From a virus: a DNA stretch of 62,958 nucleotides. The notes under the pieces are model-generated. The model had not been told where the DNA came from. It saw only the letters and a program-made list of their open reading frames with translations, and searched no databases. How positions within the stretch are numbered: the first letter of the stretch is position 1; the number at the start of each line of letters is the position of its first letter. Both the position numbers and the translations under genes were made by a program. The DNA lies in the IMG/VR virus record IMGVR_UViG_3300044648_000169, positions 1 to 62,958 of that record. One strand, 5' to 3'. Below are positions 13,378 to 16,343 of this stretch, one piece after another.

Positions 13378-13980
13378 ATGCATATCGGGGAGCGGCTTAG
13401 AACGCTGGTCAAGGAGCGAGGGGTGGCGGTGAAGGCGTTGGCCTTGCACTGCGGCGTCACTACTGGCGCGGTCTCCAACTGGTTCCGCACCGGGCGGATT
13501 ACGAAGGAAAACCTGCTCGCTGCGGCCGAGTTCCTGGGGACCACAGCCGACGAGGTGATCTCAGGCGCCGCGCTTGATCGGTCGGCGCCCCAGGCGATGG
13601 CATCGCCCGCGTCAGCGCTCAACCTGCTCGCGCGAGCGTTGGCGGGGTTGCCCCGACTAGAGCGGCTTCAACTGGCCACGCTGCTTCCGTTGCTGGCAAC
13701 TGAGCCTGAGACCAGCCGGCAGACCATGCAGGCGATCCTGCGGCTGTTGGGGGCCGACCCCGTGGCCGCCGATGAGGTGGCGCGGGTGGACTTCAGTGAA
13801 CTTGCGCTGGACCTTGCAGAAAAGCTGGACGCCATTCCAGAGGGGCGGCGAGTTCGGGCGCACCGCGCTGCAAGCGTGGCGCTGTCACTGCAGGAGTTTC
13901 CCGACTCTGGCGATGCCACAGGCGACCGGCCCCCACCGCCAGGGCCGCGGCCTGGCTCGGGCTCGCGCAAACCGCGCTGA
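13378..13980 (+). CDS. CI-like XRE-family phage repressor
   Basis: A protein of 200 residues from the ATG at 13378. An ATG at 13339 would add 13 residues but lies inside the operator. The XRE helix-turn-helix is at residues 1-60: MHIGERLRTLVKERGVAVKA, then GVTTGAVSNWFRTGRITKEN. Behind it is a helical region probably used for dimerisation. No LexA/S24 protease domain is present, so induction would not use RecA-driven self-cleavage. It should maintain lysogeny by binding the two similar operators. The last 188 bases are overlapped by an opposite-strand gene. Confidence 0.82.
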   Translation: MHIGERLRTLVKERGVAVKALALHCGVTTGAVSNWFRTGRITKENLLAAAEFLGTTADEVISGAALDRSAPQAMASPASALNLLARALAGLPRLERLQLATLLPLLATEPETSRQTMQAILRLLGADPVAADEVARVDFSELALDLAEKLDAIPEGRRVRAHRAASVALSLQEFPDSGDATGDRPPPPGPRPGSGSRKPR

Positions 13981-14293
13981 GTAGCCCGGCTTGGGCCAGT
14001 GGGGCGATCACGCTGCTCACCTCATCCAACGGCTGCTGGTCGACCAGGAGCACCGCCGGTCGACCGCCGGCCTGGGTCGCCCACGCCTCCAGCAGGAATC
14101 GCACGTCCCCGGGACAGAGTTGGAGCGCATGGCCGGCGTCAACCAGCAGGCACTCAGGCGGGCCGATCAAAAGGGCCCGTGAAATCGCCCGCTCAATTTC
14201 CGCCTCACAAATGCCCTGCTTCAGCGTGATGCGAACAACATCACGATATGGCTGATCGACCGTCCAAGCGTTTGATGGCGCGGTTCGTGGCAT
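13793..14293 (-). CDS. unknown protein, possible STAS-like domain, convergent with the repressor
   Basis: A 166-residue protein from the ATG at 14293, which has AGGGGG 5 bases upstream. Residues 20-125 (VVRITLKQGICEAEIERAIS, LLVDAGHALQLCPGDVRFLL, GGRPAVLLVDQQPLDEV) read like alternating strands and helices similar to STAS or receiver folds. The C-terminal third is low-complexity and lies antisense to the end of the repressor gene. It shares a 72-base control region with the first luxR gene, which runs the other way. Function is unknown. Confidence 0.55.
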   Translation of the reverse strand: MPRTAPSNAWTVDQPYRDVVRITLKQGICEAEIERAISRALLIGPPECLLVDAGHALQLCPGDVRFLLEAWATQAGGRPAVLLVDQQPLDEVSSVIAPLAQAGLLSAVCASPSQAAALAVGAGRLWHRQSRETPAVTAPRLQRGAPELAAPLEWRPAFLQGPAQVH

Positions 14294-14365
14294 CAATTCC
14301 CCCTAGTGCTTTCCTGCACATTTTGCGGGGGCGGAAACACTTTGACACCTAGCAGAATTGCCGTC
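14294..14365. promoter_or_regulatory. divergent control region between the STAS-like and first luxR genes
   Basis: This 72-base gap contains an imperfect inverted repeat, AGTGCTTTCC (14305-14314) with GGAAACACT (14333-14341), and a TTGACA at 14342-14347. The TTGACA lacks a good -10 at normal distance, so I do not call a firm promoter. The inverted repeat may be a regulator site controlling both genes. Confidence 0.4.
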
Positions 14366-15115
14366 ATGAAATCCCTACGTGATGTCTTGATCTCGGAGGC
14401 TTTGGGCGGCCTGGGTAGCGCTCAGACGGCGCCGGAGTTCGGCGCCCTCGCGGAAAAGCTCACAGAGGGTTTCGGCATGGATCGGTACATCGTGATCGAC
14501 GTGCGTAACGGCACCCTGGCGGGGCTGCACCACAACGCGCCTGCCCACTTGAGCGCCGACATCGAAAACCTTGCCACCGCGGATTCGGACCCGATCCTCG
14601 GGAAGGCCCGAGTTTCGCGGATGCCATTTGCATGGGGTCGCGGCGACGGCGGCCCCTGGCGCGAGGCATATGGCAGCTTGGGGTATCACTCGGGAATCGC
14701 GGGCGTGACCTGGGACGGCGTGGGCTCCGGTGTCATCGCCCTGTTCTCTTCGGAGGCTGATGGCCTGCCGGAGGAAATTATCGGCTCGCTGCTCGGCTTC
14801 GTGGTGTTGGCGGCCGTGACGATGAGCACGCCGCTGCGCCGTTTGGCGCCCAGACCGCTGGCCGAATGCCCTTTCACGGCGCGCGAACTGGACTGCCTGC
14901 GCTACGCGCTGGCCGGTAAGTCGTCAAAGGAAACGGCGCGCTCGCTGGGCATTGGCGCGCGGACCGTGAACCAATACCTCGAACGAGCGCGCACCAGGCT
15001 CCAGGTCAAGACCACCTACGCCGCTGCCACGATAGCGCTGCGGCGTGGGTGGATCGACATGCAGGAAGCGTCGGAGCTGGCCGGCTTAGTTCCCGCCGCC
15101 ACCGGTGCGCGGTAG
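14366..15115 (+). CDS. LuxR-type quorum-sensing regulator (first)
   Basis: A 249-residue protein with the layout of LuxR family receptors. Residues 1-160 form an autoinducer-binding domain, with the family's DP pair (SDPIL) and a later tryptophan (MPFAWG) kept. The tryptophan and tyrosine that usually contact the acyl-homoserine lactone appear replaced by leucine and isoleucine in PAHLSADIE. The C-terminal LuxR helix-turn-helix is clear: FTARELDCLRYALAGKSSKE, then IGARTVNQYLERARTRLQVK. No luxI-type synthase is in the window, so it would sense host or foreign signals. It sits inside the immunity region, so it may bias lysis or lysogeny. Confidence 0.88.
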   Translation: MKSLRDVLISEALGGLGSAQTAPEFGALAEKLTEGFGMDRYIVIDVRNGTLAGLHHNAPAHLSADIENLATADSDPILGKARVSRMPFAWGRGDGGPWREAYGSLGYHSGIAGVTWDGVGSGVIALFSSEADGLPEEIIGSLLGFVVLAAVTMSTPLRRLAPRPLAECPFTARELDCLRYALAGKSSKETARSLGIGARTVNQYLERARTRLQVKTTYAAATIALRRGWIDMQEASELAGLVPAATGAR

Positions 15116-15169
15116 GTCGGCCGGGTTGTAGTCGCGGATGCCAAGCAGTGCCAGCAGGAAATCAAACAT
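15086..15169 (-). CDS. 27-codon small ORF downstream of a palindromic operator
   Basis: The frame runs from the ATG at 15169 to the TAA at 15086-15088, reading MFDFLLALLGIRDYNPADLP and a short glycine tail. A GGAG ribosome site lies 7 bases before the ATG. The N-terminal ten residues are hydrophobic. It overlaps the 3' end of the first luxR gene in antisense. A perfect 15-bp palindrome lies about 79 bases upstream. The arrangement matches known phage transcription factor-small protein modules, but the product itself is unproven. Confidence 0.5.
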   Translation of the reverse strand: MFDFLLALLGIRDYNPADLPRTGGGGN

Positions 15170-15221
15170 GGGTGGACTCCACAGAGGGTTGCGGTCAAAT
15201 CGACCGCTGTCCACTTTGAAG

Positions 15222-15283
15222 TCCCTAGCACGTTTCGCCTAGCTGCAAAACCTGTCAGGTTTACCGTCAGTGACAACTGAGGT
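15222..15283 (-). promoter_or_regulatory. palindromic operator and candidate promoter of the small ORF
   Basis: A perfect palindrome, AAACCTGTCAGGTTT, lies at 15248-15262. Next to it, at 15263-15283, is an imperfect dyad with TCAGT and ACTGA half-sites. LuxR proteins bind CTG-N-CAG-type dyads. On the minus strand the palindrome abuts TTGCAG, followed by a weak -10 (TAGGGA, 15222-15227). The palindrome would then be centred about 40 bases upstream of transcription start, where LuxR-type activators bind. A hairpin (GCGGTC with GACCGC, 15191-15207) lies in the leader. Confidence 0.5.
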
Positions 15284-15287
15284 AGGC

Positions 15288-16004
15288 CTAGTCGATCAAG
15301 CCCCCTTGAATACAAGTGAGCACCGCGCCTTGCACGGAGCTGGCGCCCAGTTTGCGCGCAGCGCTGCGCTGCCGCCGGGCCACCTCTGGCTGGCTGATGA
15401 CCATGCGCTGACCCACCTGCCAGGCGGTGTACCCGTCCTTGGCCCAGCGCAGGCTTTCGAGTTCGCCGGCATCCAAGACCGGGCTACCTGCCGGGGTCGG
15501 GGTAGAAATCCGCTGCAGCGCTGACTGCGCGTGCAGCGTGACCATCTGCACGGCCGCCTGCAGGCGCATGCGGACCACCGGGTCGATCGGCAGCGCGTCC
15601 GGGCGATCGAAGCCCAGCAAGAACTGCTCGAGGTGGCTGGGCTCGTGCACGCTGCACGCTACCCCGCAGCGGTAGCCGAACGACGCCTGCAGATCCCATA
15701 GATCCACCGCGCCCGCTTCGACGTAGGTGGACTGGTCATACAGCACGGGGACGATGTTGGAGCGCAGAGCCCGGATGACCGGATCACGCAGGGCATCGCT
15801 CAGCGACTGCTGTGCCACGACATAGGCATCTGGGGTGTTGCCAACCCCGAGCATCCAGGCATTCGCGGATCCCATGGCGCCGCGGATCAGCACCGCCGAG
15901 AACAGGCCGAAGCCCAGCTCGTGTGCTGCTGACGTCAGGCGGGACCGCAGGGTGTCGACGTCCGGCGACAGTCCTAGATCCAGGAGTTGCTGCTGAGAGA
16001 GCAT
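15288..16004 (-). CDS. LuxR-type quorum-sensing regulator (second)
   Basis: A 238-residue protein, weakly similar in layout to the first LuxR. The sensor domain keeps an RDPV motif (SDALRDPVIRALRSNIVPVL), and the pocket tryptophans appear replaced by tyrosines (NTPDAYVVAQ, PVLYDQSTY). The C-terminal DNA-binding domain (AGELESLRWAKDGYTAWQVG, then VARRQRSAARKLGASSVQGA) is recognisable but diverged. It follows the KTSC gene by 6 bases, so they are probably co-transcribed. It converges on the first luxR gene with the small ORF between them. Confidence 0.82.
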   Translation of the reverse strand: MLSQQQLLDLGLSPDVDTLRSRLTSAAHELGFGLFSAVLIRGAMGSANAWMLGVGNTPDAYVVAQQSLSDALRDPVIRALRSNIVPVLYDQSTYVEAGAVDLWDLQASFGYRCGVACSVHEPSHLEQFLLGFDRPDALPIDPVVRMRLQAAVQMVTLHAQSALQRISTPTPAGSPVLDAGELESLRWAKDGYTAWQVGQRMVISQPEVARRQRSAARKLGASSVQGAVLTCIQGGLID

Positions 16005-16010
16005 GGACCG

Positions 16011-16343
16011 CTATTGCGACGGAGTCCCGCCCTGTCTGCAATCGTAGTTGCCCTTGATGTTGGCGAGGTAGTAGCGCCCTAGGGACGGCGATGAACGCCA
16101 CGCCGCCACGGTCTCTGGCGGCATGCGGCAGTAGTGATACCAAGTGCCCTTGAGGTTCACCAGCAGGTAGCGGTCCGACAGCTTCCAGCAGGTACGCCAG
16201 ACCAGCGAGCTGGGTTGCTCCACGCAGTTGAAGCCCTTCAGGTCGACCTCGCCGTGGTACTTCACGAAAACCGTCTCGGCCGACGCGCCCATAGGCGCCA
16301 ACGCGAGCGCGGCCAGCATCACTTTCGTTCTCAGTGGTCCCAT
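16011..16343 (-). CDS. secreted KTSC-domain protein
   Basis: A 110-residue protein. Residues 1-22 are a signal peptide ending ASA. The mature part (ETVFVKYHGEVDLKGFNCVE, then CWKLSDRYLLVNLKGTWYHY, YYLANIKGNYDCR) matches the KTSC domain with its repeated NLKG/NIKG strands. Such proteins are found in phage and bacterial genomes and may act in the cell envelope; no activity is established. It has a strong ribosome site (AGGGAGGGG). It is transcribed away from the rightward operator, a position like that of lysogenic conversion genes. Confidence 0.75.
   Translation of the reverse strand: MGPLRTKVMLAALALAPMGASAETVFVKYHGEVDLKGFNCVEQPSSLVWRTCWKLSDRYLLVNLKGTWYHYCRMPPETVAAWRSSPSLGRYYLANIKGNYDCRQGGTPSQ

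Follow-up and report, generated by a model that had tools for sequence, protein, structure and literature searches.

Described systems closest to the locus

In textbooks, acyl-homoserine lactones (AHLs) are the signals received by LuxR-type proteins, and there are very many LuxR solos for which we know of no ligand. Among peptide-based systems, the arbitrium system of Bacillus phages consists of AimR, a receptor of the RRNPP/TPR type, and AimP, a secreted and re-imported peptide that controls lysogeny. The Rgg/SHP pheromone pairs belong to streptococci, which are Gram-positive hosts, and Aqs1, a folded protein of greater length, inhibits a receptor of the host. LuxR receptors that respond to AHLs have been described in phages (PMC6456758), and AHL-responsive LuxR and LasR receptors and LuxR solos are compared here from PMC10134790. 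Phage lysis modules that pair a transcription factor (TF) with a small ORF (smORF) are also known, namely VqmA-Qtip of VP882 and XRE-LuxR-smORF of Aeromonas; their smORFs encode proteins of 50–60 codons that lack homologs, are counter-oriented to the TF gene, and act on cI (PMC10432266, PMC6456758).

The window (the whole stretch of DNA that was analysed, positions 1-62,958) is the complete IMG/VR virus record IMGVR_UViG_3300044648_000169. Like the TF-smORF modules, its locus has LuxR-type TF genes (luxR1 and luxR2) beside a small ORF in the repressor region of a temperate phage, with a likely sensing input and with a lux-box-like element as TF target site. It differs from them in three ways: a peptide gene of 16–27 codons, whose core is common to chromosomal peptides, follows luxR2; two LuxR proteins appear to divide the sensor and DNA-binding roles; and the small ORF, rather than being divergent from the TF gene, lies 3' of luxR2 on the same strand and is convergent with luxR1 (6/6 loci). 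As in arbitrium, a phage receptor gene is followed by a short peptide gene with a conserved C-terminal core, but the receptor has a LuxR and not an RRNPP/TPR fold, and signal-peptide processing and communication by the phage module would be hypothetical. With Rgg/SHP pairs it shares a very short precursor with a hydrophobic N-terminus and conserved C-terminal residues, encoded beside an intracellular regulator; the receptor families, however, are unrelated, and the hosts of Rgg/SHP are Gram-positive. The autoinducer-binding plus GerE architecture, the lux-box-like target and LasR as the best PDB sequence match of the LuxR2 family recall the AHL receptors, whereas three AHL-contact residues are replaced and a dedicated peptide gene adjoins the receptor gene. 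Aqs1, which binds LasR (structure 6v7w), is likewise a small phage product aimed at a LuxR-type receptor, but the peptide described here is encoded with the phage's own receptor.

Layout of the phage locus

The luxR1 (14366-15115, plus strand) and luxR2 (15288-16004, minus strand) genes are convergent. LuxR1 has an intact GerE DNA-binding domain and a weak sensor domain; LuxR2, a member of a peptide-linked family, has a conserved autoinducer-type sensor domain and a decayed DNA-binding domain. The first-pass annotation had placed a 27-codon ORF with a ribosome site between the two genes, and both are there: the ORF (MFDFLLALLGIRDYNPADLPRTGGGGN; 15086-15169, minus strand) lies 3' of luxR2 on the luxR2 strand, and a GGAG Shine-Dalgarno sequence (15177-15180, minus strand) precedes its ATG by 7 nt. 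The final 30 nt of luxR1, on the opposite strand, lie within the ORF, which ends in the conserved C-terminal core LPRTGGGGN (15089-15115, minus strand). GGAG is paired in a leader RNA hairpin (15174-15224, minus strand; z -3.9).

Upstream of the ORF is a lux-box-like element, TGACGGTAAACCTGACAGGT (15250-15269, minus strand), and a second copy, identical at 15/20 bases, lies at the start of luxR1 (14347-14366, minus strand). The 15-bp palindrome AAACCTG-T-CAGGTTT (15248-15262, no strand), which had been singled out as a site for a LuxR activator, is indeed perfect around one central base, but it is not significant alone because 7-1-7 palindromes are common in the window (11 versus 8.45 in shuffles), and we rejected it as stand-alone evidence. 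What does bear out the idea of a LuxR-type promoter element before the ORF is that the palindrome partly falls in the lux-box-like element, which is shared with homologous peptide ORFs.

A CI-like repressor gene (13378-13980, plus strand) lies near the module; as had been claimed, its product lacks a cleavage domain, Pfam giving an HTH match only and no S24 peptidase. Between this gene and luxR1 is an ORF of 167 aa (13793-14296, minus strand) with zero Pfam matches, and a gene for a KTSC-domain protein (16011-16343, minus strand) is directly upstream of luxR2.

The peptide gene in six phage and prophage loci

Searches of IMG/VR with LuxR2 yielded two further contigs, L002 and L003, and searches with LuxR1 returned the same two. 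In both, luxR2 and luxR1 are convergent and a small ORF occupies the same position (MATLFALIFGTPRTGG and MVQFFLSLIGVLDLPRTGGGGA, respectively). Another locus, L095, emerged independently when only the DNA pattern encoding the C-terminus was used as query, and in it both luxR genes flank MSIFAALAELFSLPRTGGGGF. Searching 399 Burkholderiaceae genomes with LuxR1 gave two more: L098 (MSFISILSFIALALPRTGGGW), classed as a prophage from its layout, and L099 (MSFFAAFLEVFSLPRTGGGW), whose neighbours are phage-like (a ParB-like protein, a DNA primase/helicase, an HNH endonuclease, and a repressor). Conservation in relatives, named in the first-pass annotation as a check on the ORF, was thus found, the same layout and a related peptide being present in five other phage or prophage loci.

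The phage peptides have no leader and consist of a largely hydrophobic stretch of ~10–18 residues followed by (L/T)PRTGG(G)x. PRTGG is fixed in all six loci and third codon positions change. Constraint from LuxR1 on the opposite strand fails to explain this conservation, because LuxR1 tails differ among the loci and the chromosomal relatives have the core without luxR1 overlap. Judged by these comparisons, the 27-codon ORF is a real conserved gene.

An HTH-only phage repressor is also encoded near the module in L003, L095, L098, and L099; in the last three the repressor gene immediately precedes luxR2, with the same orientation, and in L003 and the window it is on the luxR1 side. Because an HTH repressor is encoded in one or other of these positions, a lysis-lysogeny role of the module is likely, which agrees with the first-pass annotation.

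Neither DNA nor LuxR protein comparisons gave a useful relative among the INPHARED phages, and a plasmid search gave only distant LuxR proteins (~30% identity). Searches of PHROGs, Pfam and NCBIfam with the peptides gave no family, the sole match being a weak one, below cut-off, of the outlying L017 peptide to a bacteriocin leader. Three viral matches to the DNA pattern (L093, L106, L107) were discarded as chance, having no LuxR nearby and no plausible gene. L051, a candidate prophage with a truncated LuxR, was rejected: it is surrounded by chromosomal genes, and a frameshift seems to account for the short LuxR. An attenuator leader peptide was rejected for the phages because there is no close same-strand gene downstream.

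A chromosomal family in Burkholderiaceae

Homologs of LuxR2 (E <= 1e-38) occur in 113 of the 399 sampled Burkholderiaceae genomes, and most are followed by a small ORF with a ribosome site. The C-termini of these chromosomal peptides hold a proline-containing core, usually ending in Trp, for instance LPRVGGW, LPRAGW, APKSTW, TPVKGW, or GPNGGW; in the window and in L002, L003, and L095 the peptide has no terminal Trp. When fixed rules were applied, a small ORF ending in PxxxW followed 55/82 family luxR genes versus 6/404 control genes, and three of the six control positives (L009, L042, L082) are these very peptides, reached through a different reading frame. Some precursors repeat the core two to five times: there are five CTPRGGSW-type units in L009, five GPNGGW in L082, and two copies each in L043, L046, L067, and L078. 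At the other extreme of size, the host LuxR proteins closest to the phage LuxR2 clade are paired with just MTSYPRVGW or MICLPRVGW (9 codons) or MLWDIIAEAFAIPRVGW. The phage locus has the features of this family, namely a family LuxR, a lux-box-like element, and a short ORF with a conserved proline-containing C-terminal core.

Several other arrangements were observed in chromosomes. L053, L054, L055, L056, and L057 are tandem arrays in which one peptide gene is surrounded by several members of the LuxR2 family. An unnamed conserved protein of ~130–150 aa with the motif WDW...DP is encoded divergently from luxR in host loci (L005 2980-3426, minus strand; L009 965-1360, minus; L058 4981-5433, minus; L063 9742-10122, plus), and the one member examined has no Pfam match. 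Outlying LuxR relatives in L016 and L017 are followed by double-glycine-type peptides (2512-2631 and 2479-2595, respectively, both plus strand) with the cores TLEAFPIFPR and FPVVPPLGGGG; the pairing may therefore reach beyond the LuxR2 family.

Leaders and exporters

By a simple rule, 50 of 60 precursors have a double-glycine leader. A Peptidase_C39 domain is encoded 0.5–3.9 kb downstream on the same strand, mostly at ~1.7 kb, in 37/47 genomes, and by inspection an HlyD-like gene lies between peptide and C39 in L058 and L060. Five genomes with leaderless peptides (G001, G746, G412, G789, G584) have no C39 at all and two more (G686, G791) have weak remote copies only; G790, which belongs to the genus of G789 and has a peptide with a leader, has C39 adjoining luxR. 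The phage ORF has neither a double-glycine leader nor a neighbouring C39 transporter, whereas most chromosomal relatives have both. Around the phage module, and around those leaderless host loci that were inspected, neither an exporter nor an importer gene turned up. The minimal host genes and this distribution of leaders and exporters therefore indicate that what is conserved of the product is just the core, and that the phages fall in the leaderless branch.

Lux-box-like element and leader RNA

In the chromosomal family, CTGTAAG occurs between luxR and the peptide gene in 51/61 cases (0.6 expected) and TGACAGT in 48 of the same 61 (0.5 expected); together they give a lux-box-like CCTGTAAGAGTTGACAGTTA. 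The phage promoters match its right half: GTAAACCTGACAGG in the window (ORF strand) and GTAAATCTGACAGG in L002, L095, and L099, with one mismatch in L098, while L003 keeps CTGACAG. Upstream of the peptide genes of hosts, L045 and L021 among them, the ribosome site is often separated from a -10-like TGCTGAAAT by a short inverted repeat of the GTGCACG/CGTGCAC type. In each of the six phage loci the leader forms a hairpin in which the ribosome site, or sequence near it, is base-paired (z -2.1 to -5.8); these hairpins could keep peptide output low. An Rfam search of the region gave zero matches.

The two LuxR proteins

The six phage LuxR2 proteins form a single clade (100/100) within the tree of the chromosomal family. 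In the family, LasR Y56 is replaced by T, A, or P (mostly T or A), W60 mostly by Y or F, and S129 by G in nearly all members, so that D73 alone is kept of the AHL-contact set Y56, W60, D73, and S129. P74 and Y93 are also unchanged, and Tyr takes the place of W88 in those four phage proteins that were mapped. A small molecule is a possible ligand of LuxR2, D73 and Y93 of LasR being kept.

The phage LuxR2 proteins pass the Autoind_bind cut-off (30–51 bits) but GerE is below cut-off or absent, with HTH scores of 19.6, 19.6, none, and none versus 48–62 in chromosomal relatives, which have both domains. LuxR1 shows the converse pattern, its HTH scoring 28–44 bits and its sensor match being weak or missing. 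Such a division suggests that one partner senses and the other binds DNA. The structures predicted by AlphaFold for LuxR1 and LuxR2 were of moderate confidence (pLDDT 72 and 75, respectively) and serve for fold assignment only; that of LuxR2 matches SdiA, RhlR, and QscR. The type of peptide core correlates with the sensor domain (r 0.54) and also with the DNA-binding domain (r 0.47). Because the DNA-binding domain correlates nearly as well, the core-sensor correlation may reflect common descent, and we rejected co-variation as proof of binding.

Proposed function and alternatives

We propose that the ORF makes a peptide signal or ligand read by the sensor domain of LuxR2, and that LuxR1 exerts the effect at the lux box, close to the repressor of the phage; we give this somewhat more than an even chance. 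Comparison between loci yields the conserved gene pair with its arrangement, the promoter element, the association of leaders with exporters in hosts, and the domain split. We infer binding of the peptide to LuxR2, a LuxR1-LuxR2 partnership, export and re-uptake, and an effect on the repressor. In host chromosomes the order is a receptor gene, then a lux-box-like promoter, then a precursor with 5–9 conserved C-terminal residues (xPRxGW type). In the phage, the C-terminal core would most likely bind the LuxR2 sensor domain; LuxR2, with its decayed DNA-binding domain, would modulate LuxR1, whose DNA-binding domain is intact, and LuxR1 would act at the lux-box-like elements before the peptide gene and luxR1, forming a feedback circuit. 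Beside a CI-like repressor, such a circuit would bias lysis or lysogeny.

Could the peptide instead inactivate the repressor? The first-pass annotation favoured this Qtip-like role, in which a LuxR-induced small protein binds a non-cleavable repressor, as in VqmA/Qtip or XRE-LuxR/smORF. Such modules exist in other phages (PMC10432266), and here a small ORF with a lux-box-like promoter adjoins an HTH-only repressor. We nevertheless consider the role quite unlikely: the same core follows the same LuxR family in chromosomes with no adjoining phage repressor, and its occurrence there in 9-codon genes and tandem repeats, usually with double-glycine leaders and exporters, fits a LuxR signal or ligand better. 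Furthermore, the repressors vary across the six phages while PRTGG is fixed, the ORF is not counter-oriented to the TF promoter as in the known modules, and the chromosomal family is left unexplained. The phage peptide may have a dual use, as LuxR ligand and as repressor-binding protein. That it is a mimic or decoy, interfering with or eavesdropping on a host LuxR-peptide system and not serving phage LuxR2 as ligand, is an unlikely reading too. G473 and G475 hold both a host-type system and a prophage version, with related cores (APKSGW/APKSTW and PRTGGGW), and LasR-binding phage proteins exist, as the LasR-Aqs1 structure shows, but in 6/6 loci a phage-borne luxR2, from the family of the host receptors, adjoins the peptide gene.

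Double-glycine leaders with C39 exporters are a usual feature of bacteriocins, and the phage forms have hydrophobic N-termini; the peptide could on that account be a bacteriocin-like or membrane-active effector whose gene is switched on by a LuxR sensing AHLs or another small molecule. Cores of 5–9 residues and 9-codon genes, a pocket without Y56, W60, and S129, and a C-terminus that is conserved and hydrophilic make this distinctly improbable. Least credible of all is a functional RNA, either the leader or the overlap antisense to luxR1, with the ORF incidental: strong leader hairpins in 6/6 loci and the overlap with the luxR1 3' end are in its favour, but third codon positions change while PRTGG is fixed, and host peptides have the core without luxR1 overlap.

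A broader scheme can be sketched: Gram-negative peptide quorum sensing in which xPRxGW peptides, made on ribosomes, would be read by receptors of the LuxR fold, with an arbitrium-like phage version that would use PRTGG, a split LuxR1/LuxR2 pair, and lysis/lysogeny control, and possibly cross-talk with the host. We hold this scheme only tentatively, with less than even confidence.

Implications

A search confined to open-access papers found none that deals with encoded peptides as partners of a LuxR family. The family of tiny peptides seen here, each encoded beside the gene for a LuxR-type sensor, occurs in many Burkholderiaceae and at least six phages and is apparently undescribed. Its newness rests on the reading of the peptide as a ligand, which is in our view slightly on the probable side, and not on the peptide as a mere output of an AHL-sensing LuxR. 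Where a LuxR solo has a tiny peptide gene and a lux-box-like element as genetic partners, often together with an exporter for peptides, the pairing suggests a ligand for one large group of solos. Should the proposal hold for the phage form, that form would represent peptide communication in phages of Gram-negative hosts that arose independently of arbitrium, and phages may then sense their surroundings by a ribosomally made peptide instead of the usual small-molecule signal.
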